From: Verrucomicrobiia bacterium
GTDB taxonomy: Bacteria > Omnitrophota > Omnitrophia > Omnitrophales > Aquincolibacteriaceae
DNA: 43,269 nucleotides
Assembly (NCBI GenBank): GCA_035495615.1
Contig: DATJFP010000029.1
Coordinates: 1-43,269, forward strand
Direction: 5' to 3'
The notes below the pieces were generated by a model. That model worked only from the letters and a program-made list of their open reading frames with translations. It made no database searches and had not been told where the DNA came from. Positions within the stretch are counted from its first letter, which is position 1. Every line of letters begins with the position of its first letter. A program made the translations under genes and the position numbers. Below are positions 428 through 20,636 of this stretch, piece by piece.

Positions 428-1111
428 ATGGGGGGTCTCGAAGAGAAAAGCATGGTAGACCTTAAAAAGATTGCCCTTTTCAGCGGCTTGTCTCCCACGG
501 ATTTTTCCCTGATCAAAGCCTATCTTCGCGAAAAATCTTTTCCGAAAGGGGCAATTATCCTTTCCGAAAACGCGCCGTGCGAGCGGATTTTTATCGTGCA
601 GTCCGGCCGGATCAAACTCTACAGGATGACCTCTTCCGGGAGAGAGCAGATTCTCGAAATTTTGGGCCCCGGCGACACCTGCGCCTGCAACCCTGGTTCC
701 ATGGAATGGTTTTGCAATGCGACCGCTGAAGCCATGGAAGCGTCGAAGGTGTGGTTTCTTGCCCGTGACCAGTATGTCCGCATGGTCCAGACGAATTCAA
801 AAGTCAGCCTCACCCTGAACAAGCTGTTCGCCGACAAGCTCCGCTGTTTCGGTTCCCTCATCGAAGAAGTTTCCCTCAAAGACACCAAAAAACGTCTTGT
901 GAAGTTCATTCTCGACATGCCTGCGCCGGGATCTTCCGGCGCGGTTCCTTCCATTAGGTTTACGCAGGAAGAGCTTGCCCAGAGAATCGGCGCAGCACGG
1001 GAAACAATAGCCAGGCATCTTCAGCAGCTCAAAAAGGCGAAGTTGATCGACATCAAACCCCGCCAAATCCTGATCCTCGACCGGCCGGGCCTCGAAAAGC
1101 TTCTGGCCTGA
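428..1111 (+). CDS. Crp/Fnr family transcriptional regulator with CRP-type recognition helix
   Basis: This is a 227-residue regulator of normal Crp/Fnr length. A cyclic-nucleotide-binding-like beta roll spans about residues 15-120 (GAIILSE, IFIVQSGRIKLYR, EILGPGD). A long dimer helix follows at about 125-160, then a winged HTH at about 175-225 (FTQEELAQRIGAARETIARH). The recognition helix carries R191, E192 and R196 in the arrangement of E. coli CRP (R180/E181/R185), not the E-S-R set of FNR. This fits the TGTGA-N6-TCACA site lying just downstream. The N-terminal Cys cluster of FNR is absent, although C85, C87 and C96 lie in the beta roll. A cyclic-nucleotide, heme/NO or redox ligand are all possible; the NO-reductase genes nearby favour a nitrosative or respiratory signal. 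ATG 428 has AGGA 9 nt upstream; ATG 452 is an alternative start. Confidence 0.9.
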   Translation: MGGLEEKSMVDLKKIALFSGLSPTDFSLIKAYLREKSFPKGAIILSENAPCERIFIVQSGRIKLYRMTSSGREQILEILGPGDTCACNPGSMEWFCNATAEAMEASKVWFLARDQYVRMVQTNSKVSLTLNKLFADKLRCFGSLIEEVSLKDTKKRLVKFILDMPAPGSSGAVPSIRFTQEELAQRIGAARETIARHLQQLKKAKLIDIKPRQILILDRPGLEKLLA

Positions 1112-1135
1112 AGGGGTTAGAATATTTTTCTCCTC

Positions 1136-1153
1136 ATGTGACGCCCGTCACAT
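1136..1153. promoter_or_regulatory. Perfect CRP-type operator palindrome
   Basis: ATGTGACGCCCGTCACAT has two perfect 8-bp arms around a 2-bp centre and contains the exact CRP consensus TGTGA-N6-TCACA. It lies 25 bp after the stop of the Crp/Fnr gene and 47 bp before the next start codon. Its centre (1144.5) is about 42 bp upstream of the start site predicted from the -10-like TATCCT at 1175-1180, which is the spacing of a class II activator site. The regulator's own recognition helix (R191, E192, R196) is of the type that reads this half-site. Confidence 0.72.
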
Positions 1154-1174
1154 ACCTCTCTGCCTCTCCGGACG

Positions 1175-1180
1175 TATCCT
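1175..1180 (+). promoter_or_regulatory. Putative -10 element of the stress operon
   Basis: TATCCT matches TATAAT at 4 of 6 positions. No -35 consensus is present, because the operator palindrome covers that place, as expected for an activator-dependent promoter. Transcription would start near 1186-1187, leaving a leader of about 14 nt with an AGGAG ribosome-binding site before ATG 1201. Confidence 0.4.
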
Positions 1181-1200
1181 TCCAGTAGAGGAGAGAAACC

Positions 1201-1746
1201 ATGGGAAAACAAACAACATCCCCCCAATCCTTCTATGGTGATTCGCACGGAGAAATTCTCCGCGGTCTGGACCGTTTTGACCGGGCCCTGATCCATTTCC
1301 ATTATGAAGGAAAGCCAAACCTCGGCAGGAACATCAAAGAAATTCAAAAGGCCGAGGCAGAGCTCCAAAATTCCGTTCTTCATTGGTTCCTCCTTGAGCA
1401 TAAGACGATTTATCCTTTCGTCAAAGGACATCTCCCCCGTCTTGAATCCGCGCTTTGCCTTCTCGAATCTGAGCAGCGTGCTTTCCTGAGCCAGTTTAAA
1501 AAAATCAGGGAATGCGTGCGGGCCTTCAAAAGAATATCGGGTCCGGCAAAGGCGGTTCGGGCGGATGAAGTCCGCCAGATGGGGATTCTGCTGATTTTTT
1601 TACTGAAGAGGCATCTCGAATCCGAAAGTCGCGCGCTGTACGCCGTCATCCTGAAAAATCTGAATGCCGGCGAGAGAACCCTACTGCGAAGCCAAATCGA
1701 AAGAGCGAGAAGCCATGGACCCAAAAAAGAGAAACGCCGGCTCTGA
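1201..1746 (+). CDS. Hemerythrin-like (HHE-type) protein
   Basis: This is a 181-residue, mostly helical protein. Three His-centred helices are spaced as in a hemerythrin HHE domain: H16 in DSHGEIL, H61/E66/H67 in a segment ending TIYPFV, and H138/E142 in HLESESRALY. The last resembles the HxxxE..LYP motif of the family. The middle motif departs from the usual HFxxEE, with five residues between H61 and E66 and a second His at 67, so an intact di-iron site is not certain. Family members bind O2 or NO, or sense or repair under nitrosative stress. It is the first gene after the CRP-type operator and has a clear AGGAG ribosome-binding site. The following gene starts inside its 3' end. Confidence 0.6.
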   Translation: MGKQTTSPQSFYGDSHGEILRGLDRFDRALIHFHYEGKPNLGRNIKEIQKAEAELQNSVLHWFLLEHKTIYPFVKGHLPRLESALCLLESEQRAFLSQFKKIRECVRAFKRISGPAKAVRADEVRQMGILLIFLLKRHLESESRALYAVILKNLNAGERTLLRSQIERARSHGPKKEKRRL

Positions 1747-1969
1747 TGCTTTGCTCAAACGTCTGCTTCGGGACATCGAGGAAGAAGACATCGGCATCAG
1801 CCTTTTCAGCACCTTCTATCAGGACCAGGAGGAGCTGAGGTTTTTCAGCTTGGATGACAGGGCGAAAGTGTTGAATATCTTGCAAAGACTGGCGGAAGAC
1901 AGCAAACGGCACAAAACCATTGTGCTGAAAATCATCGGCCGCCTGGAGGCACGCCGTCATGAAAATTGA
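1715..1969 (+). CDS. Small helical protein, ferritin-like helix pair (unrecognised family)
   Basis: This is an 84-residue protein with two predicted amphipathic helices: about 12-40 with the acidic run IEEED, and about 47-78 with EDSKRHKT. The second helix looks like helix B of a rubrerythrin/ferritin-like domain, but the residue three before H66 is Ser63, not the canonical Glu. The metal site may therefore be altered or absent. The ATG at 1715 lies inside the hemerythrin-like gene (32-bp overlap). An in-frame upstream ATG at 1664 would extend it, but the extension sits wholly within that gene and is less likely. The stop overlaps the next start at 1959. I do not recognise a named family. Confidence 0.6.
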   Translation: MDPKKRNAGSDALLKRLLRDIEEEDIGISLFSTFYQDQEELRFFSLDDRAKVLNILQRLAEDSKRHKTIVLKIIGRLEARRHEN

Positions 1970-2207
1970 ATACCTGAAAACTCTGTGGCTTTTGCGTTTC
2001 GAGAAAATCCGGAAGGGCGAAGAGGACGCCGCCTGGAGTTATCAGGAAATTCTCGATGCCTGCCTGGCTGATCTCGGCCAGGCCGACGAAGCCGTGTCGC
2101 TGCTGGGGCAGCTTGTCCGGGAAGAGCGCATGCATATGAAACTCGCGGAGGAACTCGTCCGTATTGCGCAGAGAAACCATCCGGAATGCGGCACGATCGA
2201 TCTCTAA
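1959..2207 (+). CDS. Small helical protein with ExxH motif (half ferritin-like domain)
   Basis: This is an 82-residue, two-helix protein. Helix 1 (about 24-47) carries E30. Helix 2 (about 49-70) reads LVREERMHMKLAEEL, with E56 and H59 forming an ExxH pair like that of rubrerythrin-type ferritin-like proteins. A full ferritin-like bundle needs four helices, so this protein would have to dimerise or pair with the preceding 84-residue product. The start overlaps the previous gene by 11 bp, which implies translational coupling. No family is recognised with certainty; the ferritin-like reading rests on the ExxH motif and helical pattern alone. Confidence 0.62.
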   Translation: MKIEYLKTLWLLRFEKIRKGEEDAAWSYQEILDACLADLGQADEAVSLLGQLVREERMHMKLAEELVRIAQRNHPECGTIDL

Positions 2208-2218
2208 GGAGGTGTGTC

Positions 2219-2929
2219 ATGACAGACATTTCGAAGCTTCACACTTATTTGAAAACCATGGCTTACGAGCAAGACCTCAACAAACCGGTCGACCTTCAAG
2301 GCGGCCATAACCCGTTTATCACCATTTCCCGGGAAACCGGCGCGGGAGGGCACAGCTTGGCGGCCGCTCTCCTTAAGCTCATGGCAAAGCACGGAACGAA
2401 GTCCTTGAGCGGATGGCATGTGCTGGACCAGGAGATCTGCGAAAAGGTGGCTGCCGAACCGGGGCTCAAAGTTTCGCTCCACAGGCTTTTGTCGGAAGAA
2501 TACCACTCGCAGATCGAAGACATGATTGTGGAAATGTTTGCCGGGGACACCCCCCAGGACGCCGTGGCCAGGCGGATGTTTGCCATGATGCGCACGCTCG
2601 CGACCTTCGGGAAAGTCATCCTGATCGGCCGCGCGGGAGCCTTTGTGACCCAGGATCTTCCGCTCGGCATTCACGTCCGTCTGGTGGCGCCCGTGAGCGT
2701 GAGAATCCGCCGCATGGCGGCTGTGATGAAAACGGATGAAAATCAGGCACGCCGTTTTATCGAGGCTCAGGACGAGGCGAGGGCCAAGCTCGTGAAAGTT
2801 TTTTTTAACGGGGACATTGCCGACCCGCTTTATTACCACGCGACGTTCAACACCGGGCGCCTATCTATCGAAAACGCCGCGGAAGCAGTGCTCGGACAGC
2901 TCCACAAAAAGGAGCCCGTCCTCCGTTGA
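2219..2929 (+). CDS. Cytidylate kinase-like family protein (Cytidylate_kin2 type)
   Basis: This is a 236-residue protein of the CMP-kinase-like family. A Gly-rich nucleotide loop, ITISRETGAGGHSLA (residues 34-48), replaces the classical GxxxxGK(S/T) and lacks the P-loop Lys, as usual in this branch. Further motifs are ILIGRAG (134-140), RLVAP (154-158), the Arg-rich lid RIRRM (162-166), and the C-terminal LYYHATFNTGRLSIENAA typical of the family. Members are often called cytidylate kinases, but most are uncharacterised and may phosphorylate another substrate. ATG 2219 follows a TAAGGAGG ribosome-binding site, which decides the start against the in-frame ATG at 2186. It sits between the ferritin-like genes and an anion transporter in one operon, suggesting a stress or signalling role and not housekeeping CMP phosphorylation. 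Confidence 0.8.
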   Translation: MTDISKLHTYLKTMAYEQDLNKPVDLQGGHNPFITISRETGAGGHSLAAALLKLMAKHGTKSLSGWHVLDQEICEKVAAEPGLKVSLHRLLSEEYHSQIEDMIVEMFAGDTPQDAVARRMFAMMRTLATFGKVILIGRAGAFVTQDLPLGIHVRLVAPVSVRIRRMAAVMKTDENQARRFIEAQDEARAKLVKVFFNGDIADPLYYHATFNTGRLSIENAAEAVLGQLHKKEPVLR

Positions 2930-2941
2930 GGGGGAAGAAAA

Positions 2942-4318
2942 ATGAATCATCCGATGCGGCTTGAATTCTGGAAGCAAAAAAAAGTATGGCTCTCCGCCGC
3001 GGCCTTGGCCTTGGCGGCGGCCTCCTATGCCGGCTTGCAGGGGCAATGCTCCGAGTCTGCAAGGCGGATGGCTTTTATCTTTGTCCTCGCCGCGTCTTTC
3101 TGGACTTTCGAAATGATCCCTCTTTATGCGACCGCCCTTTGGGTTGTATTTCTCGAATCTTTTCTTCTGGTGCGGCCGCTCGGCATGGGATCGGGTCTGG
3201 AAACCTATTTCATAGGGCCGCTTGCCGATCCGGTCATTGTCCTGTTTTTAGGCGGTTTTATCCTGGCGCGCGCTTTTGCCAAATATGGCATCGATTCCAG
3301 CATCGCGACGTGTCTTCTTCGCCATGCCGGGAACCGGCCTTATTTCATGCTGCTGAGCTTCATGGCCGCGACGGCATTTCTCGGCATGTGGATTTCGAAC
3401 ACGGCGACTTCGGCGTTGATGCTGGCCGTCCTTCTTCCGATCCTGGGAAGCCTTGACGCGGGAGATCCCTTCAGGAAAGCGCTTGTCCTCGGGATTCCCT
3501 TCGCGGCCCGCATCGGAGGCATCACGACCCCCGTGGGATCGCCGACGAATGCCTTGGCCTTGGGGCTTCTGGCCGAGCGGGGAATTCATGTCAATTTTCT
3601 GACCTGGATGAGCGCAACACTCCCGCTTGCCGTCCTTCTCCTGCTGATGACGAGCGGCATTCTCTACATTCTGTTTCCGCCCCGCCAGGCAGCCGTTCCC
3701 TGCAGCATGGAACCTACGCGGCCTTTCGATCGAGACGCCCGGTTGGTTTTGTTCATCGGAGCCGCGACAGCAGGGCTGTGGCTCACTTCTCCGTGGCATA
3801 GGATGCCGGAATATCTGACGGCGCTCCTTTGTGCCGGCGTCCTGGCCGCCATGCGGCTCATCACGGTGGAAGATCTGAAAAAAATCGACTGGGACATTCT
3901 GATCCTGATGTGGGGCGGCCTGGCGCTGGGTGAAGGCATGATGATTACCGGGCTGGCGGACTGGGCCATGACCCTTCCCGTGTATCCCCATGAAAAATGG
4001 CTGCTTTATCTCGCCGTGTGCCTGGTCACGGTTCTTCTTTCGACCTTCATGAGCAACACGGCAACCGTAAATTTACTCATTCCCGTCGCTCTCAGCATTC
4101 CAGCCGGGGATGCTTCCATGCTCGCCGTCCTGGTGGCGCTCGCGGCGTCATTTGACCTGGGCCTGCCGATTTCCACACCGCCGATGGCCATGGCGTACGG
4201 CACAAAAGAATTGAGTATTTCCGACATGCTGAAGGCCGGAACCGTCTTTGCTCTGGTCGCGAACGTGCTGCTTTTGGCCGGGGTGGAATTTATGATGAAG
4301 GAGGTCTTTGTCCGATGA
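2942..4318 (+). CDS. SLC13/DASS family anion transporter
   Basis: This is a 458-residue polytopic inner-membrane protein with about eleven hydrophobic segments. It has both signature SNT motifs of the divalent anion:sodium symporter family: S152-N153-T154 in MWISNTATSALM and S371-N372-T373 in FMSNTATVNLL. It also has the PVGSPTNALALG hairpin motif after the first. Family substrates are dicarboxylates, citrate, sulfate or phosphate with Na+; the substrate here cannot be told. The repeated architecture is complete and the length is usual. The start is 12 bp after the kinase-like gene and follows GAGGGGGAAG. The stop overlaps the next start (ATGA), so it is translationally coupled to the DUF2490 protein. 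Confidence 0.9.
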   Translation: MNHPMRLEFWKQKKVWLSAAALALAAASYAGLQGQCSESARRMAFIFVLAASFWTFEMIPLYATALWVVFLESFLLVRPLGMGSGLETYFIGPLADPVIVLFLGGFILARAFAKYGIDSSIATCLLRHAGNRPYFMLLSFMAATAFLGMWISNTATSALMLAVLLPILGSLDAGDPFRKALVLGIPFAARIGGITTPVGSPTNALALGLLAERGIHVNFLTWMSATLPLAVLLLLMTSGILYILFPPRQAAVPCSMEPTRPFDRDARLVLFIGAATAGLWLTSPWHRMPEYLTALLCAGVLAAMRLITVEDLKKIDWDILILMWGGLALGEGMMITGLADWAMTLPVYPHEKWLLYLAVCLVTVLLSTFMSNTATVNLLIPVALSIPAGDASMLAVLVALAASFDLGLPISTPPMAMAYGTKELSISDMLKAGTVFALVANVLLLAGVEFMMKEVFVR

Positions 4319-4962
4319 AAGCGCGGATGACTCTGCTGATTTTATTTCTCATGCCGTCTTCGCTCCTCGCGGGGGATGATTTCCAGTATTGGTCGCGCTT
4401 GCAGGTGAAAGCGATCGATACGCGGTACGTCGATTACATCAATTACTGGGACCTTCGCTTTTGCGAGGGCGCCTCCCATCTCGGATTCTGGCAGACGAGC
4501 CAGAAAGTGCAGGTCGACGCCTTCGAGAATCTTGGTTTTGGAGCCGCTTATACCTACCTGGAAGCGGAAGCCGGATCGAGCGAATTGAAATATCAGCACA
4601 GGCTCGAGCTCGAAGCCCTGCCGCGATGGAAATTCGGGCGCATCAATATCAATAACCGCGACCGTTTCGAATTCCGCTGGATCGAAGGCAAAGGCTCGGA
4701 CAACGGGCGATTCCGCCAGCTTTGGGAGTTCGAATTTCCATTCAAAGCGAAATCCAAGCCGCTGGCGTTTTACTGCAGCAATGAGTTTTTCCTGGACTGC
4801 AAGGCGCGGACAATCAACGAAAATCAAGTCGTGCCCGCCGGCATCGTCATTCCGCTTTCCCGGCGAAGCTCTCTGAAGGTTTTTTATATGCTGCAATCGA
4901 GAAAAAAAGACACATGGTCTTCGAGCCATATCTTGGGGACACACTTGTCCTTCGCTTTGTAA
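4315..4962 (+). CDS. DUF2490-type outer-membrane protein
   Basis: This is a 215-residue exported protein. Residues 1-19 form a Sec signal peptide ending SLLAG. The rest is rich in alternating polar/aromatic beta strands, with YQHRLELEALPRW, NRDRFEFRWI and a C-terminal strand ending in LSFAL. The final aromatic-hydrophobic pattern suits an outer-membrane beta barrel. The layout (DFQYWSR near the N-terminus, RHRLELE and NRxRxEFRW in the middle) is that of DUF2490 proteins, whose function is unknown. It overlaps the transporter gene by 4 bp; it may provide an outer-membrane path or sensor for the same anion, which is inference. Confidence 0.7.
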   Translation: MKARMTLLILFLMPSSLLAGDDFQYWSRLQVKAIDTRYVDYINYWDLRFCEGASHLGFWQTSQKVQVDAFENLGFGAAYTYLEAEAGSSELKYQHRLELEALPRWKFGRININNRDRFEFRWIEGKGSDNGRFRQLWEFEFPFKAKSKPLAFYCSNEFFLDCKARTINENQVVPAGIVIPLSRRSSLKVFYMLQSRKKDTWSSSHILGTHLSFAL

Positions 4963-4988
4963 TGAAAAAAGAACCACGGAGGTGCTTT

Positions 4989-5972
4989 ATGAAAACGAAT
5001 AAAAAAGTCCTAATCGGGTACGACGGCTCCGCCGGCGCGGACGCGCTTCTCGTCGATTTGCAACGGGCCGGCCTGCCGCGTAAGACCTCGGTCATGGTGG
5101 TGTGTGTCGCGGATGTCTTTCAACCGCCGTCCACTTGCAACGAGGTGAGCTATGGCGCCGCGGTGATCGAAGCGGTGCGTAAAGGATGGGAACATGCGAA
5201 CGAGGTGGTGGGGCAGTGCAAGAGTACCGCAGCGTCCGCCGCTAAAAAAATCAGAACAAGTTTTCCAGAGTGGGAAGTGCAGAGCGAGGCTTTCGCGGAT
5301 TCGCCGGCATGGGGAATTATCAAAAAAGCCAAGTCCTGGAAGGCCGACCTCATTCTGGTGGGTGCGCACGGCATGACCTCGGCCGGCCGGATGCTTCTGG
5401 GAAGTATTTCCCAAATCGTTGCCACCCAGGCCTCATGCACTGTCCGTGTGGTTCACAACAGGGCCGAAGACCTGCGCTCGCCGCCGCGCATCGTCATCGG
5501 CATCGACGGTTCTCCCTGCGCGAACACGGCGCTCAAAGAGGCCGCTTCAAGAGCCTGGCCCAAAGGGACCGCTTTTCATTTGATTACCGCCATCGATCCC
5601 AGGGTCAAGACTTCCGTCCTGCTTCCGCCGTCACAGAAATGGCTGGAGGGAAACGATTCAGTGGCTCATTACTGGGTGGGAAGGCTGATGGAGGCCGCGG
5701 CAGATAAACTGCGCTCACGCGGTTTTGCGGTCACCTGCCTCAAGAAGGAGGGAGATCCCAAAAAAATTCTGGTGGAAGAAGCCGAACGCTGGGGAGCCGA
5801 CGTCATCTTTATCGGCGCGCGCGGTCTCGGCGGAGTGAAGCACGCGTTGATGGGGAGCGTTTCCTCGGCTGTCGCGGCGAGGGCGCATTGCGTGGTGGAA
5901 ATTGTCCGGGAATCAGTCCCCGGAGCGAACGCAAAAAAGAAAACGACAAAAGGCAAGGTCGCGGCCGTTTGA
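4989..5972 (+). CDS. Tandem universal stress protein (two UspA domains)
   Basis: This is a 327-residue soluble protein with two UspA domains. Domain 1 (about 5-155) starts KVLIGYDGSAGA and has the ATP-binding signature GAHGMTSAGRMLLGSIS. Domain 2 (about 165-305) starts RIVIGIDGSPCA and has GARGLGGVKHALMGSVS. Both signatures match the G-2x-G-9x-G(S) pattern, so both halves may bind nucleotide. The C-terminus is a basic tail. ATG 4989 follows ACGGAGG with good spacing; the in-frame upstream ATG at 4914 lies in the preceding gene and is rejected. Tandem Usps are usually induced by respiratory arrest, NO or starvation, which suits the neighbours. Confidence 0.92.
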   Translation: MKTNKKVLIGYDGSAGADALLVDLQRAGLPRKTSVMVVCVADVFQPPSTCNEVSYGAAVIEAVRKGWEHANEVVGQCKSTAASAAKKIRTSFPEWEVQSEAFADSPAWGIIKKAKSWKADLILVGAHGMTSAGRMLLGSISQIVATQASCTVRVVHNRAEDLRSPPRIVIGIDGSPCANTALKEAASRAWPKGTAFHLITAIDPRVKTSVLLPPSQKWLEGNDSVAHYWVGRLMEAAADKLRSRGFAVTCLKKEGDPKKILVEEAERWGADVIFIGARGLGGVKHALMGSVSSAVAARAHCVVEIVRESVPGANAKKKTTKGKVAAV

Positions 5973-5991
5973 ACGGCACAGGAGGATGATC

Positions 5992-6759
5992 ATGAGTGTC
6001 CCTAAAAAAATTCAAAATTTTTTGAAACATCACAAGGTCGAATACGACGTAATCGTGCACCCTGAATCTTTTTCGGCCAGCCGTACGGCTCAAGCCGAAC
6101 ACGTGCCGGGAAAGGAGTTCGCGAAAGTCGTCATGGTCAAATCCAAAGGAAAGGACTTGATGTTCGTGATTCCGTCGACATGCGTGCTGGATTTTTTTAA
6201 GGTGAGCGCTTCTTTGGGCACGCAGGATGTTCGTATCGAAGAAGAAGCCGAGTTTAAGAGGCTTTTCAAAGACTGCGAAACGGGAGCCATGCCTCCTTTG
6301 GGCAAGCTCTATCATCTGAGCTGTTTCGTGGATGATAGTTTGAAGAAGGTGCCCGAAGTGGTTTTCAACGCAGGCAGCCACAAAGAAAGCATCCGGTTGC
6401 CGGCGATGGATTTCTTCCGGGTGGTGAAGGCACGGTTCGGTGATTATTCCGTACCCGCCGCGGCTTTGCCGGCAAAAAAAGAGGCGAAAAAGGCGCCGGC
6501 GCCGGCTCCGGCTCCGGAGGCGGATGACAGATGCCTTCTGGCTTTCGAATCGTATCAGCATGCGATCGGCGAAACCGCGGGCATTCTCTACCGGACCCTG
6601 GAAAGAAAAGGCGCCCTTAACCCCGCTTCTCTTCAAAATGAATCGGGCATCGCGGATTCAACGCTTTTGAATCGCGCCCTGGGATGGCTTGCGCGAGAGG
6701 ACAAAATCCTCCTGCGGGGAAGCGGGAAGGAATTCAAGATCTCACTCGCAAAAGCATAA
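5992..6759 (+). CDS. YbaK/ProX deacylase-like domain fused to a winged helix
   Basis: This is a 255-residue fusion. Residues 1-150 form a YbaK/EbsC-type domain: AKVVMVKSKGKDLMFVIP with K45, GAMPPLG at 98-104, and FNAGSHKESIRLPAMDFF near 125-142. This family edits mischarged tRNA (for example Cys- or Ala-tRNAPro). A Lys/Ala/Pro linker covers about 160-177. Residues 185-255 form a winged-helix domain (IGETAGILYRTLERKG, NRALGWLAREDKILL) closely resembling DUF2582. The start follows ACAGGAGG at 5979-5986, which rules out the ATG at 5986 and the longer ORF from 5902. Free-standing YbaK proteins lack this extension. The fused form could couple a sensed aminoacyl-tRNA or metabolite to DNA binding, but that is speculation. 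Confidence 0.82.
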   Translation: MSVPKKIQNFLKHHKVEYDVIVHPESFSASRTAQAEHVPGKEFAKVVMVKSKGKDLMFVIPSTCVLDFFKVSASLGTQDVRIEEEAEFKRLFKDCETGAMPPLGKLYHLSCFVDDSLKKVPEVVFNAGSHKESIRLPAMDFFRVVKARFGDYSVPAAALPAKKEAKKAPAPAPAPEADDRCLLAFESYQHAIGETAGILYRTLERKGALNPASLQNESGIADSTLLNRALGWLAREDKILLRGSGKEFKISLAKA

Positions 6760-6768
6760 GGAGGCGTT

Positions 6769-7014
6769 ATGGAAGAAAGCCGGAGGTTTTGTCCAGCCGT
6801 ATGGTTTTCGGGTTTTTTTGCGCTCGGAGCGGCAGTCCATCTGATACGGGGAATTTCAGGGGTGCAGCTTGTCGTTGGAGGATTTGAAGTTCCCATCGGG
6901 ATGAGTTTCGCCATTGCAGGCATCTTCGGGATGCTTTCAGTGGGGCTGGCCGTCCTGGGCGTCAAAAGAAAATGCGTTTCCGGGCGCGGGCCCGAATCAT
7001 GCTGCCAGCATTAG
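6769..7014 (+). CDS. Small two-helix membrane protein
   Basis: This is an 81-residue protein with two hydrophobic segments: about 10-35 (VWFSGFFALGAAVHLI) and about 42-66 (IGMSFAIAGIFGMLSVGLAVLGV). A short basic Cys-containing tail follows, ending ESCCQH. It has an AGGAGG ribosome-binding site and starts 9 bp after the YbaK fusion. It is the last gene before the hairpin at 7021. I do not recognise the family. The C-terminal Cys pair and final His could bind metal, which is only a guess. Confidence 0.6.
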   Translation: MEESRRFCPAVWFSGFFALGAAVHLIRGISGVQLVVGGFEVPIGMSFAIAGIFGMLSVGLAVLGVKRKCVSGRGPESCCQH

Positions 7015-7020
7015 AAACGC

Positions 7021-7051
7021 CCCCGGCGCGCTTGAATCAGGCGCGCCGGGG
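7021..7051. terminator. Strong GC hairpin after the stress operon
   Basis: Two perfect 11-bp arms (CCCCGGCGCGC and GCGCGCCGGGG) enclose a 9-nt loop, 4 bp after the last stop codon of the long operon. The hairpin is followed by TGTAAAAT instead of a run of T, so it may be a transcript-stabilising or Rho-assisted structure and not a classical intrinsic terminator. The position fits an operon end. Confidence 0.5.
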
Positions 7052-7075
7052 TGTAAAATGTGCCGGAGCCTGATA

Positions 7076-7245
7076 ATGAAAGATAATAAAGGCAAAATCG
7101 GACTCATCAAAAAAGGCGCGGTGCTGGTCAATACCTCCCGGGGCGGACTTTTTATTCCTGTGAGGCCGTCCAGCGGATCTTCCAAAACACCGTCGACAAT
7201 ATCCTGGCCTTTTTGAAGGAGCCGCCGATAAATCAGGCGCGTTAA
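7076..7245 (+). pseudogene. Decayed 2-hydroxyacid (D-lactate-type) dehydrogenase remnant
   Basis: Two pieces of a D-2-hydroxyacid dehydrogenase survive in different frames. The first (about 7094-7147) reads LIKKGAVLVNTSRGGLF, the conserved NAD-domain end of the family. The second (about 7148-7245, two bases shifted) reads FYSCEAVQRIFQNTVDN, then ILAFLKEPPINQAR and a stop, which is the family's C-terminus. Intact proteins have roughly 70-90 residues between these blocks, including the catalytic Glu and His region. The whole N-terminal two thirds is also missing. An internal deletion plus frameshift has therefore left a 170-bp relic directly in front of NnrS, and it may now act only as leader sequence. 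Confidence 0.78.
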
Positions 7246-7254
7246 GAAAGGATT

Positions 7255-8520
7255 ATGTCACACGTCGAGAAAACAATTCAGCTTCGGAGTATCGCGGAAC
7301 CCTACCGGATTTTTTTCCCGCTCGGAATTTTGATGGGATTGGGCGGCGTTCTTCATTGGTTTTTTTATGGGACAGGAATGATTCCCGCCTACTCCTCGGC
7401 GCTCCATGCCGCCGTGCAGACCGAGGCCTACCTGGGATGTTTCATCATCGGATTTCTCACGACGGCCTTTCCCAGGTTCACGGCGTCTTCCCCCTGCGCG
7501 CTGTGGGAATTTTTACTTTTATGCGGCCTTGTCTTCGCGGCGGCATTTTTTAATTTCGCGGGCCTGCCGCAGGCAGGGCAGGCCTGTTATGCCGGCTGGG
7601 TTGCCGCGCTCGGCTTTTTTGCCGTGCGCCGCGTGCTCGGCAGAAGAGGCAAAGCTTCCGTCCCTCCGGTCTCTCCTCCGGTGGAAATGATCTGGATTCC
7701 GGTAGGTCTTCTCCATGTGCTGGCCGGCACGGCTCTTTATCAGGCCGCGTTTTTCGGCTATGCGCCTGCCTCCTGGATGGGAACCGGACGGCTTTTGTCG
7801 GATCAAGGCTTCCTGCTTTCGATCGTGATAGGAATCGGGGGCTTTCTGGGGCCGCGTCTCATGGGCACGTTTAAACTGGCGCCGGCGCGCGCGGCGGACG
7901 CGGTCCGGGCCCGGCGCATGAAAATGTTTTTCCATCTCAGCGCGGGGGCCCTCGTCTTTTTGAGCTTTGTCCTCGAAGGGGCCGGAAATGTCCGCGGGGC
8001 ATTTGCGCTTCGGGCGGCTGTCGTGACGGCGGTGATGGCTTCGACCGGAGCTCTTGCCTTGAAACCCGCGAATCGAGACAGCATTGTTCCGGGCGTTTGG
8101 GTTTCTTTCTGGATGATCGCGCTGGGGCATTGGGCCGTCGCCTTGAAGCCGGATTTCCGGACGGCGTGGCTTCATCTGGTTTTTCTGGGCGGTTACAGCC
8201 TCATGACTTTCTCCGTTGCAACGATGGTCATTGTGAGCCATGCGGGAGAGGCTGCGCGCCTGCGCAGGCCGCTCGCAGCTTTGAACGTCGTTTATGCGGC
8301 GCTTGCCGTCGCACTCGGGACAAGGCTCGCCAGCCCGTTTTTTCCGGAACACTACTTTAAACTTTTGGCGTTCGCCTCGGCGGTCTGGTCGGCTGCGGGC
8401 GTCGTGTGGCTGGCCTTTTGTTTTCCCTACCTGCGGCGTTTCGCGGATCCCGCAGAAATGGAAAAAGCCCATGCGGAAGCCCGCAAAAGAATCCTTGAAA
8501 ATAAAAACCATGTTTGCTGA
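7255..8520 (+). CDS. nnrS: NnrS family membrane protein
   Basis: This 421-residue protein has about twelve hydrophobic segments. Near the N-terminus it has PYRIFFPLGILMGLGGVLHWF, the NnrS opening, and then HAAVQTEAYLGCFIIGFLTTAFPRFT, equivalent to the H...F..GFLLTA.P motif. NnrS proteins are heme- and copper-containing membrane proteins of the nitrite/NO regulon and protect against NO stress. It is 21 bp upstream of the qNOR gene and clearly in the same transcript. The leader is occupied by the dehydrogenase relic. The His set is reduced compared with textbook NnrS, so heme binding should not be assumed. Confidence 0.8.
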   Translation: MSHVEKTIQLRSIAEPYRIFFPLGILMGLGGVLHWFFYGTGMIPAYSSALHAAVQTEAYLGCFIIGFLTTAFPRFTASSPCALWEFLLLCGLVFAAAFFNFAGLPQAGQACYAGWVAALGFFAVRRVLGRRGKASVPPVSPPVEMIWIPVGLLHVLAGTALYQAAFFGYAPASWMGTGRLLSDQGFLLSIVIGIGGFLGPRLMGTFKLAPARAADAVRARRMKMFFHLSAGALVFLSFVLEGAGNVRGAFALRAAVVTAVMASTGALALKPANRDSIVPGVWVSFWMIALGHWAVALKPDFRTAWLHLVFLGGYSLMTFSVATMVIVSHAGEAARLRRPLAALNVVYAALAVALGTRLASPFFPEHYFKLLAFASAVWSAAGVVWLAFCFPYLRRFADPAEMEKAHAEARKRILENKNHVC

Positions 8521-8541: not shown

Positions 8542-10788
8542 ATGAAATACGGAAAATTGTGGGCGGGTTTCATTCTCGTGACGGGACTCTCTTTCACGGT
8601 GCTGGGCTATTTCGGACGCGAAATTTACCGGCAGGCGCCCCCCATTCCTCAAAAAGTGGTGACAGCCTCCGGAGAAGTCCTGTTCACGGCAGAGGCCATC
8701 CGGGACGGACAGAATGTCTGGCAGTCGACGGGAGGACAGGAACTGGGCTCCGTTTGGGGGCACGGCGCGTACGTTGCTCCAGACTGGACCGCGGATTGGA
8801 CGCACCGCGAAGCCACGGCGCTTGCCGACCTTTTGAGCCAGCAGGCCTATCAAAAGCCTTTTGATTCCCTGGGTGGCGAACAGAAAAAAATCATCGAGTA
8901 CCGTCTCCAGCAGGAAATCCGCGCCAATACCTTTCATCCGGAAACGGGCGAGGTGACCGTGAGTGATTCCCGCGCGCAGGCCATTAAAAAGACGGCGGCC
9001 CATTACAGCGCGCTATTTCTTGGAGATCCTTCGCTTGCCGATCTGCGGGAGACCTATGCCATGAAAACCCGCACGCTGGAAGATCCCGCGCGCATGGAAA
9101 AGTTGAACGCTTTCTTTTTCTGGGCAGCCTGGGCCTGCGTGACACAGCGCCCCGGCCAAAGCGTCACCTACACGAATAACTGGCCGGCCGATGAACTCGT
9201 GGGAAACCACCCCACGGGAAGCTTGATTCTCTGGACCGGCGTCAGCGTCATTCTTCTCCTGGCCGGTATCGGTGTCCTGGCTTTTTTTTACGCTTCGCAG
9301 CACGACGCGCCCTCAGTCCGGTCGTTTCCCGACAAAGACCCGCTGCTCGGATATCAGCCTACGCCTTCCATGAAAGCCACGCTGAAATTTTTCTGGACCG
9401 GCGCGGCGCTTTTCGTGGTCCAAGTCGTTCTCGGCGTGATCAGCGCCCATTACAGCGTGGAAGGAAGCGGATTTTACGGGATTCCTTTGTCTCAATGGCT
9501 GCCCTATTCGGTGGCCAGGACCTGGCATGTCCAACTCGGGATTTTTTGGATCGCGACCTCCTGGCTGGCCACGGGACTTTATGTGGCGCCCGCGGTGTCC
9601 GGCCATGAACCCGCATTTCAGAGAGCCGGCGTCAATTTTCTGTACGTCTGCCTTCTCATCATCGTCGTCGGCTCGCTCGCGGGCCAGTGGCTGGGCGTCA
9701 TGCAAAAGCTCGGCCTGGCGCAGAATTTCTGGTTCGGCCATCAGGGCTATGAATACGTGGACCTGGGCCGGTTCTGGCAGATCTTTCTCACCGTCGGACT
9801 TTTTCTCTGGCTGTTTCTGATGACGCGCGCGCTGATGCCCGCTTTTCGGAAAGAAGGCGACCATAAGCAGCTGCTCGCCCTTTTCGTCATCGCGTCCGCG
9901 GCCATCGCTCTTTTCTACAGCGCCGGACTGATGTGGGGCCAGCACACGCACCTTTCGATCGCGGAATATTGGCGGTGGTGGGTGGTGCATCTGTGGGTGG
10001 AAGGTTTCTTCGAGGTTTTCGCTACGGTTGTGATCGCGTTTCTTTTCGTCCGCCTGGGGCTTCTCGGCGTGAAGCTCGCGACCGCGGGCGTTCTTTTTTC
10101 CACGAACGTTTTTCTCGCCGGCGGCATTATCGGGACGTTCCATCATCTTTACTTTACCGGAACGCCCACGTCGATTCTCGCGCTGGGCGCGACCTTCAGC
10201 GCTCTGGAAGTCGTGCCCCTTGTCCTGATGGGATTCGAAGCCTGGAATAATTATCGGCTGACCCGTGCAGGCGGATGGCTCGAAGGCTACAAATGGCCGA
10301 TCTATTGCTTCATCGCGGTGTCGTTCTGGAACTTGCTCGGCGCCGGCATTTTTGGATTCCTGATCAACCCTCCCATCGCGCTTTATTATATGCAGGGTTT
10401 GAACACCACGCCCGTTCACGGGCATACCGCGCTTTTCGGCGTTTACGGAATGCTGGCCATCGGGCTCATGCTCTTCGTCATCAAAGGCCTGCACGCGCCC
10501 CGGCCGTGGAAGCAGGGGATCATCCGGTTTTCATTCTGGGCCATTAATATCGGGCTCTTGTTCATGGTCGTGCTCAGCCTGCTGCCCATCGGACTGATTC
10601 AGACTTGGTTCAGTGTCGAAAAGGGATTTTGGTACGCGCGCAGCGGAGATTTTCTTCAGACGGGATGGATGGACAAGCTTCGCTGGATGCGCGTGCTGGG
10701 AGACACTCTTTTTGGATTGGGGGCGCTCGCTCTCGGCCTTTTTGTCGCGGGGCTGAAGACCGGGGCATCTCTTGAACCACATGAATAA
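8542..10788 (+). CDS. norZ: Quinol-dependent nitric oxide reductase (qNOR)
   Basis: This is a 748-residue single-subunit NO reductase that reduces 2 NO to N2O with quinol at the inner membrane. An N-terminal helix and a periplasmic NorC-like region without a heme c CxxCH motif (about residues 35-220) precede the NorB-like core. Ligands can be assigned by comparison with cNOR: low-spin heme b His329 and His628, heme b3 His626 (HGH), and FeB His483, His534 and His535 with Glu487 (HLWVEGFFE, FHH). All are present, so the enzyme should be active. It starts after GGAGG. The next gene begins inside its last codons, which links NO removal to c-di-GMP synthesis. Confidence 0.95.
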   Translation: MKYGKLWAGFILVTGLSFTVLGYFGREIYRQAPPIPQKVVTASGEVLFTAEAIRDGQNVWQSTGGQELGSVWGHGAYVAPDWTADWTHREATALADLLSQQAYQKPFDSLGGEQKKIIEYRLQQEIRANTFHPETGEVTVSDSRAQAIKKTAAHYSALFLGDPSLADLRETYAMKTRTLEDPARMEKLNAFFFWAAWACVTQRPGQSVTYTNNWPADELVGNHPTGSLILWTGVSVILLLAGIGVLAFFYASQHDAPSVRSFPDKDPLLGYQPTPSMKATLKFFWTGAALFVVQVVLGVISAHYSVEGSGFYGIPLSQWLPYSVARTWHVQLGIFWIATSWLATGLYVAPAVSGHEPAFQRAGVNFLYVCLLIIVVGSLAGQWLGVMQKLGLAQNFWFGHQGYEYVDLGRFWQIFLTVGLFLWLFLMTRALMPAFRKEGDHKQLLALFVIASAAIALFYSAGLMWGQHTHLSIAEYWRWWVVHLWVEGFFEVFATVVIAFLFVRLGLLGVKLATAGVLFSTNVFLAGGIIGTFHHLYFTGTPTSILALGATFSALEVVPLVLMGFEAWNNYRLTRAGGWLEGYKWPIYCFIAVSFWNLLGAGIFGFLINPPIALYYMQGLNTTPVHGHTALFGVYGMLAIGLMLFVIKGLHAPRPWKQGIIRFSFWAINIGLLFMVVLSLLPIGLIQTWFSVEKGFWYARSGDFLQTGWMDKLRWMRVLGDTLFGLGALALGLFVAGLKTGASLEPHE

Positions 10789-18914: not shown

Positions 18915-20636
18915 ATGAAAGAAAAACCCCGTCTTTACGATTGGCTGCTTTTGGGCGCCCTGCTGTTCGCGGCGGGCAGCACCGCGCTTCATCTGGACCG
19001 CGGCTGGGATTTCACGGACGAAAGTTATTACCTCCTCAACAGCCGGTATCCCCATCTTCTCATGCAGGGCAGCCAGTTCGGCCATTACACGGGGCTTGTC
19101 TTCCGCCTGGCCGGAAGCAGCATCGCTCTTTTCCGGCTGGCCGGGATGGTCCTGCTGCTCGCGTGCGGCCTTTTTTTCGCGCTGCGCTTCGAGATTTTTT
19201 TGCGCGGCCCGGGCGGCCTCGGCCGGGAAATGCCGGGAGCCTTGGGGCGCGTTTCCACGATTGGCCTCGGCGTTCTGTGTTTTTACGGCGCGTGGCTGAC
19301 CACGCCTTCTTATAATTGGGTGAATGGGATGGGCGTGCTGCTTGCCGTTGCGGCCCTTCTCGGCGCCGCCGGGCCCGCGCCTGGAAAAGCCGCGGGGTGG
19401 GGATTCTTATTCGGCGCGGCCTCGGCCTTGTCGTTCATGGGCAGGCCTTTGACGGCGGCGGCGCTCGGCGGACTGGGCCTCGTCTGGGCTGCCGCGGCCA
19501 TGCCCCGGGAGCGGTGCGCGCCTTTTTTTCTCGCAGCCGCAGGCGCCGCGGCCCTCGTCTTCGCGCTGCACCTGGCCTTTTTCGAAAAAAGTCTTTCCGC
19601 CTACCTTCAGGAAATGAAGGCCAGCCTCGTTCTCAACGGCTACTTCGACAAGTATCGCTTGTCGTTCATTTTCTTCGATGCCTGGCGCGATCTCGGCCGT
19701 TTTTTTCTCCGGTTCCTGGCCGCGGCATGGCCTCTTTTCCCGGCGCTTGCCGCGGCCGGACTTTTTTTCCGGCGCCGCGGGGACAAAGCCCGGGGAAGGG
19801 CGCTCGCTTTTTTTTATTTCGCGTTCTGGCTTCTCCTGACCCTGCGGAGCGGTTATCTTTTTGCGCTCAAAGGATTCCTGGGGCTGGGATGCTGTGTCTC
19901 ATTCGCGCTTGTCCAATTTGCTTTCTATCCGGACAAGGCCTTTTTCCGGAACCGGAGATTCCTTTTGCCTCTGCTTTTGACCGCGTCCGCGCTTGCGTTC
20001 GCGCTCAGCTCGGATAACGGCGTGATCCGCACGTCTTCGGCGGCTTTCGGCTTGATGGCGGCCGCGGGCATCGCGCTGGCGGTTTCGTTTGATGCCGAGA
20101 CAGGCCTCGACAAAAGTTCCCTGGTCTGCCTGATGTTCGCGGTCACGGTGCTCGTGACGCTGGATGGGGGCATGCGCCGCCCTTATCGCCAGCTCACGCC
20201 TCTCGCGGCCCAGACCGAACCCGTCCGATTTCCCGGCGTCCGCGGCGTTTTGAAAGTGAGCGCGGACACAAAACGCTACATCGACGGCATGCAGCAGGCC
20301 GCCGAGCGCGCCGGCTGGACCGCGGGCACGCCGCTCCTGGATCTTTCCGAAACGCCGGGCGCCGCGCTGGTCCTGGGCGCGGTGACGCCTGTCACCGCGT
20401 GGATTTATGGCCGGAGATATCCGGGCTATGCCGAAGGGGCGTTCCGCATGGCGGATCCGGCCGAACTCCGCCGCGCCTGGGTGTACGCGCCCGCCGCTGA
20501 AGAAACGCGGCGCCGCGTGCCGGAAGAAGTCTTGCAGTCTTTGGGATTGGATTTTCCCGGGAGCTACGAGCGGGTCGGAGAATTCGAGCATCCGTTTCGA
20601 AAGCAGATGCAGACGCTTTGGAAGCCCAAAGCCTGA
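18915..20636 (+). CDS. Polytopic membrane protein, probable GT-C glycosyltransferase-like
   Basis: This is a 573-residue protein with about twelve hydrophobic segments in residues 10-430 and a soluble C-terminal part of about 140 residues. The first external loop reads LDRGWDFTDESYYLLNSRYP, an acidic loop after helix 1 where GT-C enzymes (PMT/ArnT type) carry catalytic acids. Otherwise no family signature is visible. It stands alone on the plus strand, 29 bp after recQ, with TTAAGG directly before the ATG. It runs convergently into the methyltransferase gene with no gap. I assign it as surface-glycan related by context only. Confidence 0.6.
   Translation: MKEKPRLYDWLLLGALLFAAGSTALHLDRGWDFTDESYYLLNSRYPHLLMQGSQFGHYTGLVFRLAGSSIALFRLAGMVLLLACGLFFALRFEIFLRGPGGLGREMPGALGRVSTIGLGVLCFYGAWLTTPSYNWVNGMGVLLAVAALLGAAGPAPGKAAGWGFLFGAASALSFMGRPLTAAALGGLGLVWAAAAMPRERCAPFFLAAAGAAALVFALHLAFFEKSLSAYLQEMKASLVLNGYFDKYRLSFIFFDAWRDLGRFFLRFLAAAWPLFPALAAAGLFFRRRGDKARGRALAFFYFAFWLLLTLRSGYLFALKGFLGLGCCVSFALVQFAFYPDKAFFRNRRFLLPLLLTASALAFALSSDNGVIRTSSAAFGLMAAAGIALAVSFDAETGLDKSSLVCLMFAVTVLVTLDGGMRRPYRQLTPLAAQTEPVRFPGVRGVLKVSADTKRYIDGMQQAAERAGWTAGTPLLDLSETPGAALVLGAVTPVTAWIYGRRYPGYAEGAFRMADPAELRRAWVYAPAAEETRRRVPEEVLQSLGLDFPGSYERVGEFEHPFRKQMQTLWKPKA

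Follow-up and report, generated by a model that had tools for sequence, protein, structure and literature searches.

The region from 428 to 7014 of the window, the whole stretch of 43,269 nucleotides analysed in this study, probably comprises the gene of a Crp/Fnr-type regulator and a single operon that the regulator activates in response to NO or a linked N-oxide/redox signal. As judged from sequence comparison, this operon is one copy of a modular regulon through which Omnitrophota, a group of uncultured bacteria, would control nitrate, nitric oxide and nitrous oxide metabolism; its first genes are conserved and the cargo varies by species. The sequences show the module, the operator, the promoter geometry, the cargo themes and the conservation of cysteines. 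In the mechanism that we propose, a dimer of the four-cysteine regulator would bind TGTGAC-N4-GTCACA at about -41.5/-42.5 and, when NO or an N-oxide/redox signal closely linked to it is sensed, would act as a class II activator that recruits RNA polymerase. This would switch on HEM, a hemerythrin-like protein, together with the half-ferritin-like pair FER1/FER2, which may assemble as one split ferritin-like diiron four-helix bundle for O2/NO scavenging or iron handling. The species-specific cargo would here provide C4-dicarboxylate-type import by a DASS transporter and its outer-membrane DUF2490 partner, a kinase-like protein with links to energy metabolism, and Usp and YbaK as stress proteins, while NO would be removed by the neighbouring qNOR and NnrS.

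The regulator is encoded on the plus strand at 428-1111 (start possibly at 452), directly upstream of the operon. A sequence-only reading had placed nine genes on the same strand at 1201-7014, and their coordinates and strand proved correct throughout; they are separated by overlaps or by gaps of at most 26 bp. HEM (1201-1746, plus strand like all that follow), the core of the module, overlaps the two-helix half-ferritin-like FER1 (1715-1969) by 32 bp, and FER1 overlaps FER2 (1959-2207), which is of the same type, by 11 bp. After gaps of 11 and 12 bp follow CMK2 (2219-2929), a Cytidylate_kin2 protein (PF13189), and a DASS-family anion transporter (2942-4318), whose partner, a DUF2490 protein of the predicted outer membrane (4315-4962), begins in an ATGA overlap. 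A tandem universal stress protein (Usp; 4989-5972, gap of 26 bp), a YbaK-type editing domain fused to a DUF2582 winged helix (5992-6759, gap of 19 bp) and the small membrane protein SMP (6769-7014, gap of 9 bp) complete the series. A strong hairpin without T-run directly 3' of SMP (7017-7054, plus strand; -39.8 kcal/mol, z -5.6) is likely the 3' end of the operon. Between this hairpin and the only operator, TGTGACGCCCGTCACA at 1137-1152 between the regulator gene and HEM, the nine genes are, on this predicted layout, one operon read from a single promoter, in agreement with the earlier proposal of one co-regulated unit.

The family names assigned earlier also hold for Cytidylate_kin2 (2e-28), DASS (7e-76), DUF2490 (4e-21), both Usp domains and tRNA_edit with DUF2582. 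HEM matches PF01814 weakly (E 5e-4, below the Pfam cut-off), and FER1 and FER2 exceed no Pfam threshold. FER1, FER2 and SMP showed no family above threshold in Pfam or NCBIfam. Downstream of the operon, before nnrS, a reading frame at 7075-7216 with GLIKKGAVLVNTSRGG, a D-2-hydroxyacid dehydrogenase signature, looks like a decayed fragment.

The operator recurs with the regulator. Searching with the pattern [AT]GTGA[CT]N4[AG]TCAC[AT], we found that about 32 of 38 loci carry the consensus TGTGAY-N4-RTCACA immediately behind the regulator gene; the set is made up of 37 loci from a regulator profile scan and the window. The window genome contains only two exact TGTGACN4GTCACA sites (reversed control, 0); a two-mismatch site at 20381 in the window is at chance level. 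Across 384 Omnitrophota genomes, the exact operator was present in 26/39 genomes with the regulator and in 9/345 without it. The Fisher p of 2.6e-23 overstates the case because related genomes are not independent, but the effect is still large (67% vs 3%). Moreover, 32 aligned promoters carry a -10 hexamer at a single fixed offset from the operator (column mean 2.86 vs shuffled maxima of at most 1.78), and this hexamer played no role in choosing them. The fixed offset therefore places the operator centre at -41.5, which is the textbook operator position for class II activation by Crp/Fnr proteins, and the regulator is predicted to act as such activators do. In the window, the predicted -10 element TATCCT (1175-1180, plus strand) lies one base further than the family spacing, with the operator centre at about -42.5 instead of -41.5. 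The second exact site of the genome (G000, contig C42, 16398-16413; L047 12398-12413) stands before an O2-dependent fatty-acid desaturase gene and has TATAGT at the family -10 spacing. In another genome, G035, four exact operators occur on contigs C4, C6, C65 and C103, though no close regulator was found there; downstream of the one at L162 lie a CBM48-like gene and a gene whose product resembles SMP.

The profile scan covered 84,980 genomes, and all 37 loci belong to Omnitrophota, the phylum of the window genome as well; the scan depends on conserved peptides and could miss distant relatives outside this phylum. The recognition helix of the regulator is of the CRP type (R-E-x-x-x-R). Such a helix fits the TGTGA site: HcpR1, a Crp/Fnr protein that responds to NO, likewise combines an R-E-R helix with binding to TGTGA-N6-TCACA (PMC5701242). 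The regulator as modelled by AlphaFold (pLDDT 75) resembles structures of the Crp family. Among solved structures, DNR is one of the closest to the regulator. Cysteines 51, 85, 87 and 96 (window numbering) are invariant in eleven aligned regulators. The window regulator has no cysteine before residue 51, and the FNR-type N-terminal 4Fe-4S cysteine cluster is not present. In the alignment with a cAMP-binding mycobacterial CRP, GELS is unmatched and CACNPG...C takes its place; three of the four cysteines thus sit at the position of the phosphate-binding cassette of cAMP-binding members, the GEL motif is missing, and the cAMP-type G-E-L...R-(S/T) cassette was not found in the regulator. From this arrangement, the sensor can reasonably be guessed to be a metal or Fe-S cluster bound by thiolates.

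The gene of HEM lies on the downstream side of the regulator in 31/38 loci, several of the exceptions being contig ends. All 17 HEM orthologues (17/17) match PF01814, and the nearest solved relative is YtfE, a diiron NO-response protein. In the window copy, the histidine of helix B is replaced by tryptophan and that of helix C by glutamine. Two of the five ligand histidines are thereby lost, which for HEM weakens the earlier suggestion that the iron proteins of the operon handle O2 or NO. The full His/Glu ligand set is kept in 8/17 HEM sequences and at least one ligand is absent in 9/17.

FER1 and FER2 follow HEM in 12/38 regulator loci, and in all 20 loci of the FER2 search in which FER1 was found the two genes lie side by side. 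Conserved residues of FER2 are E21, Y28 and E56-x-x-H59, with the ExxH kept in 19/20 sequences. FER2 is linked to rubrerythrin/ferritin profiles weakly and only as an aligned set, with weak matches to EncC, symerythrin, bacterioferritin and designed diiron bundles. In FER1, E22/E23 and H65 are invariant (aligned 83-residue form), with the acid at -4, not -3, in most sequences. Its predicted structure is a helical hairpin (pLDDT 88), for which the fold search returned generic helical hairpins only, none at E <0.001; FER1 is tied to ferritins only through FER2, which its profile matches weakly (P 3e-4 over 32 columns). It is plausible that the two chains form a split diiron four-helix bundle. 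FER1-FER2 were also seen in L088, where the contig stretch holds no regulator, and in L093 and L095 the genes behind regulator-HEM-FER1-FER2 encode a porin and, as a complete operon, Pst phosphate transport. Beyond this, we put forward tentatively, and with less than even confidence, that the system represents an undescribed sensor class. In it, the Crp pocket would contain, in place of the cyclic nucleotide, a metal or Fe-S cluster bound by four cysteines that would read NO; the partner of this sensor would be the hemerythrin-like protein, in several lineages an iron-free pure partner or adaptor, often joined by the two-chain split ferritin.

The suggested tie of the operon to NO or N-oxide metabolism is borne out by its surroundings and by its relatives. 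NnrS (7255-8520, plus strand) lies directly downstream, followed by a quinol-dependent NO reductase of the qNOR/NorZ type (8542-10788, plus strand). In the window nnrS-qNOR have no operator of their own; in the relative G001 an operator stands in front of nnrS, with TAGATT at the family -10 spacing. Profile searches of the window genome found neither nirS (PF02239) nor nirK (TIGR02376), and local denitrification was discarded as the NO source. The cargo of other loci includes a narG/NXR-like molybdoenzyme with cytochrome c (L098, L100, L114, L117), Sec-type nosZ (L101 above cut-off, L104 by N-terminal similarity), the haem-synthesis radical SAM proteins NirJ/AhbC and AhbD (L099, L107, L110), an nrfA-like cytochrome c nitrite reductase (L088), multihaem cytochromes (L038, L084), nnrS (L038, L088) and hemA (L123, L128, L147, L148). 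Parts of the window operon recur as well, namely YbaK or its winged helix, each singly (L102, L108, L118, L120, L130), Cytidylate_kin2 (L102, L111, L113, L115, L122, L129) and an SMP homologue (L036/L129). Genes in relatives were called by a self-training gene caller; some cargo loci were named by eye from the first residues of the proteins and others were tested. Given the N-oxide cargo and the adjoining qNOR and NnrS, the signal is most likely NO, another N-oxide or a linked redox shift.

Sensing of O2 or of the general redox state instead of NO, with the operon supplying diiron and stress proteins for microoxic shifts, would explain part of these data. The desaturase operator on C42, with its -10 box at the family spacing, points in this direction, as do the cytochrome oxidase and Rieske/cytochrome b genes in L038 and L084 and the anaerobic NrdD in L121; the Pst genes (L093/L095) and the desaturase fit a wider O2/redox signal as well. 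However, N-oxide metabolism is the commonest cargo of the regulator loci (narG-like, nosZ, nirJ/ahb, nrfA, nnrS, qNOR), and we consider a pure O2 or redox sensor unlikely.

The kinase-like, DASS and DUF2490 genes (2219-4962) are adjacent in the window, and it had been suggested that their products import one compound and phosphorylate or sense it. All three also occur in L024, where the kinase-like gene is separated from DASS by other genes. CMK2 and DASS exceed their family cut-offs (99.9 bits vs PF13189, cut-off 28; 255.7 bits vs TIGR00785, cut-off 198.6); the P-loop-like GAGGHS of CMK2 is without the Walker lysine. DASS and DUF2490 go together in L103, L024 and the window, in L103 without the kinase, and most loci have the kinase without DASS. 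The recurrent neighbour of DASS is not the kinase but an ATP-type PEP carboxykinase, which adjoins DASS and DUF2490 in L103 and L024 and therefore suggests that the pair serves C4-dicarboxylate uptake feeding PEP. The kinase-like gene in turn keeps company with ADP-forming acetyl-CoA synthetase: eight relatives (L025-L032), without the core alongside, carry a cluster of PFOR, this synthetase, Cytidylate_kin2 and NrdD/NrdG, and anaerobic energy metabolism is a possible target of the kinase-like protein. As a weak, independent hint at a respiratory link, a gene for a cytidylate kinase-like protein appears close to one for cytochrome cd1 in an Anaerolinea listing (PMC8756737). These gene neighbourhoods led us to reject the functional trio, and a dedicated nine-gene pathway is very improbable. 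Two tandem Cytidylate_kin2 genes stand directly after the regulator in L034 (9210-10717; contig shared with L113).

Nor is the operon a free-standing system of nine genes, and the undescribed nine-gene system that had been considered as a candidate is not supported. The neighbourhood is conserved in relatives rather than absent from all of them, and what is conserved is regulator-operator-HEM, often with FER1-FER2, to which exchangeable cargo is added. At most five of the nine parts occur in any other locus, which could speak for stress genes assembled by chance under one promoter, with no common logic. However, HEM, FER1-FER2, CMK2, YbaK/winged helix, SMP and DASS-DUF2490 are found again in other genera and families, likewise behind this regulator and operator, which makes chance scarcely credible.

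To our knowledge, there are no isolates of Omnitrophota. A published account calls their scattered respiration genes a patchwork in which no denitrification pathway is complete (PMC10066038). The common regulator, operator and promoter geometry give a rule that links part of this patchwork and predicts targets for each genome. In the literature searched we found no description of an Omnitrophota N-oxide/redox regulon; likewise, the assumption that the gene combination was undescribed stood up against the literature on Omnitrophota NO regulation and on cytidylate kinase-like or DUF2490 systems. The four-cysteine regulator subfamily, the FER1/FER2 pair without Pfam family and the repeated loss of hemerythrin iron ligands, the window copy included, appear to be new. 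Both the four-cysteine sensor and the FER1/FER2 pair can be tested as purified proteins, for which culture is not needed.

Among known systems, YtfE/RIC/NorA is an NO-linked diiron hemerythrin-like family (PMC9045102, PMC9052748), from which HEM differs in that it consists of one hemerythrin-like domain and lacks the N-terminal domain of YtfE. With the two-helix encapsulated ferritins or half-ferritins and with rubrerythrin, FER2 shares E...ExxH. However, FER1 and FER2 are distinct half-size chains from adjacent genes, and no encapsulin was found among the genes read in their loci. For DNR/NnrR, we know of no description of four invariant cysteines. These regulators have nir, nor, nos and nnrS as targets (PMC1274295), and genes of this kind are targets across the phylum here too, but the DNA site and recognition helix differ: DNR/NnrR operators are FNR-like or of the TTGCG type (NnrR consensus, PMC1274295), and the operator described here, TGTGAC-N4-GTCACA, is neither. 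The HcpR/HcpR1 regulons of Desulfovibrio and others share the R-E-R CRP-type helix, the TGTGA-N6-TCACA site and nitrate/NO genes (PMC5701242, PMC1274295). Compared by description only, they differ in the four-cysteine pocket, in other target genes and in hcp, as no Prismane family match was found in the window genome while controls were detected; HcpR was therefore dropped as a name for the regulator. The regulon works like the HcpR and DNR systems, yet it lacks a defining feature of each.
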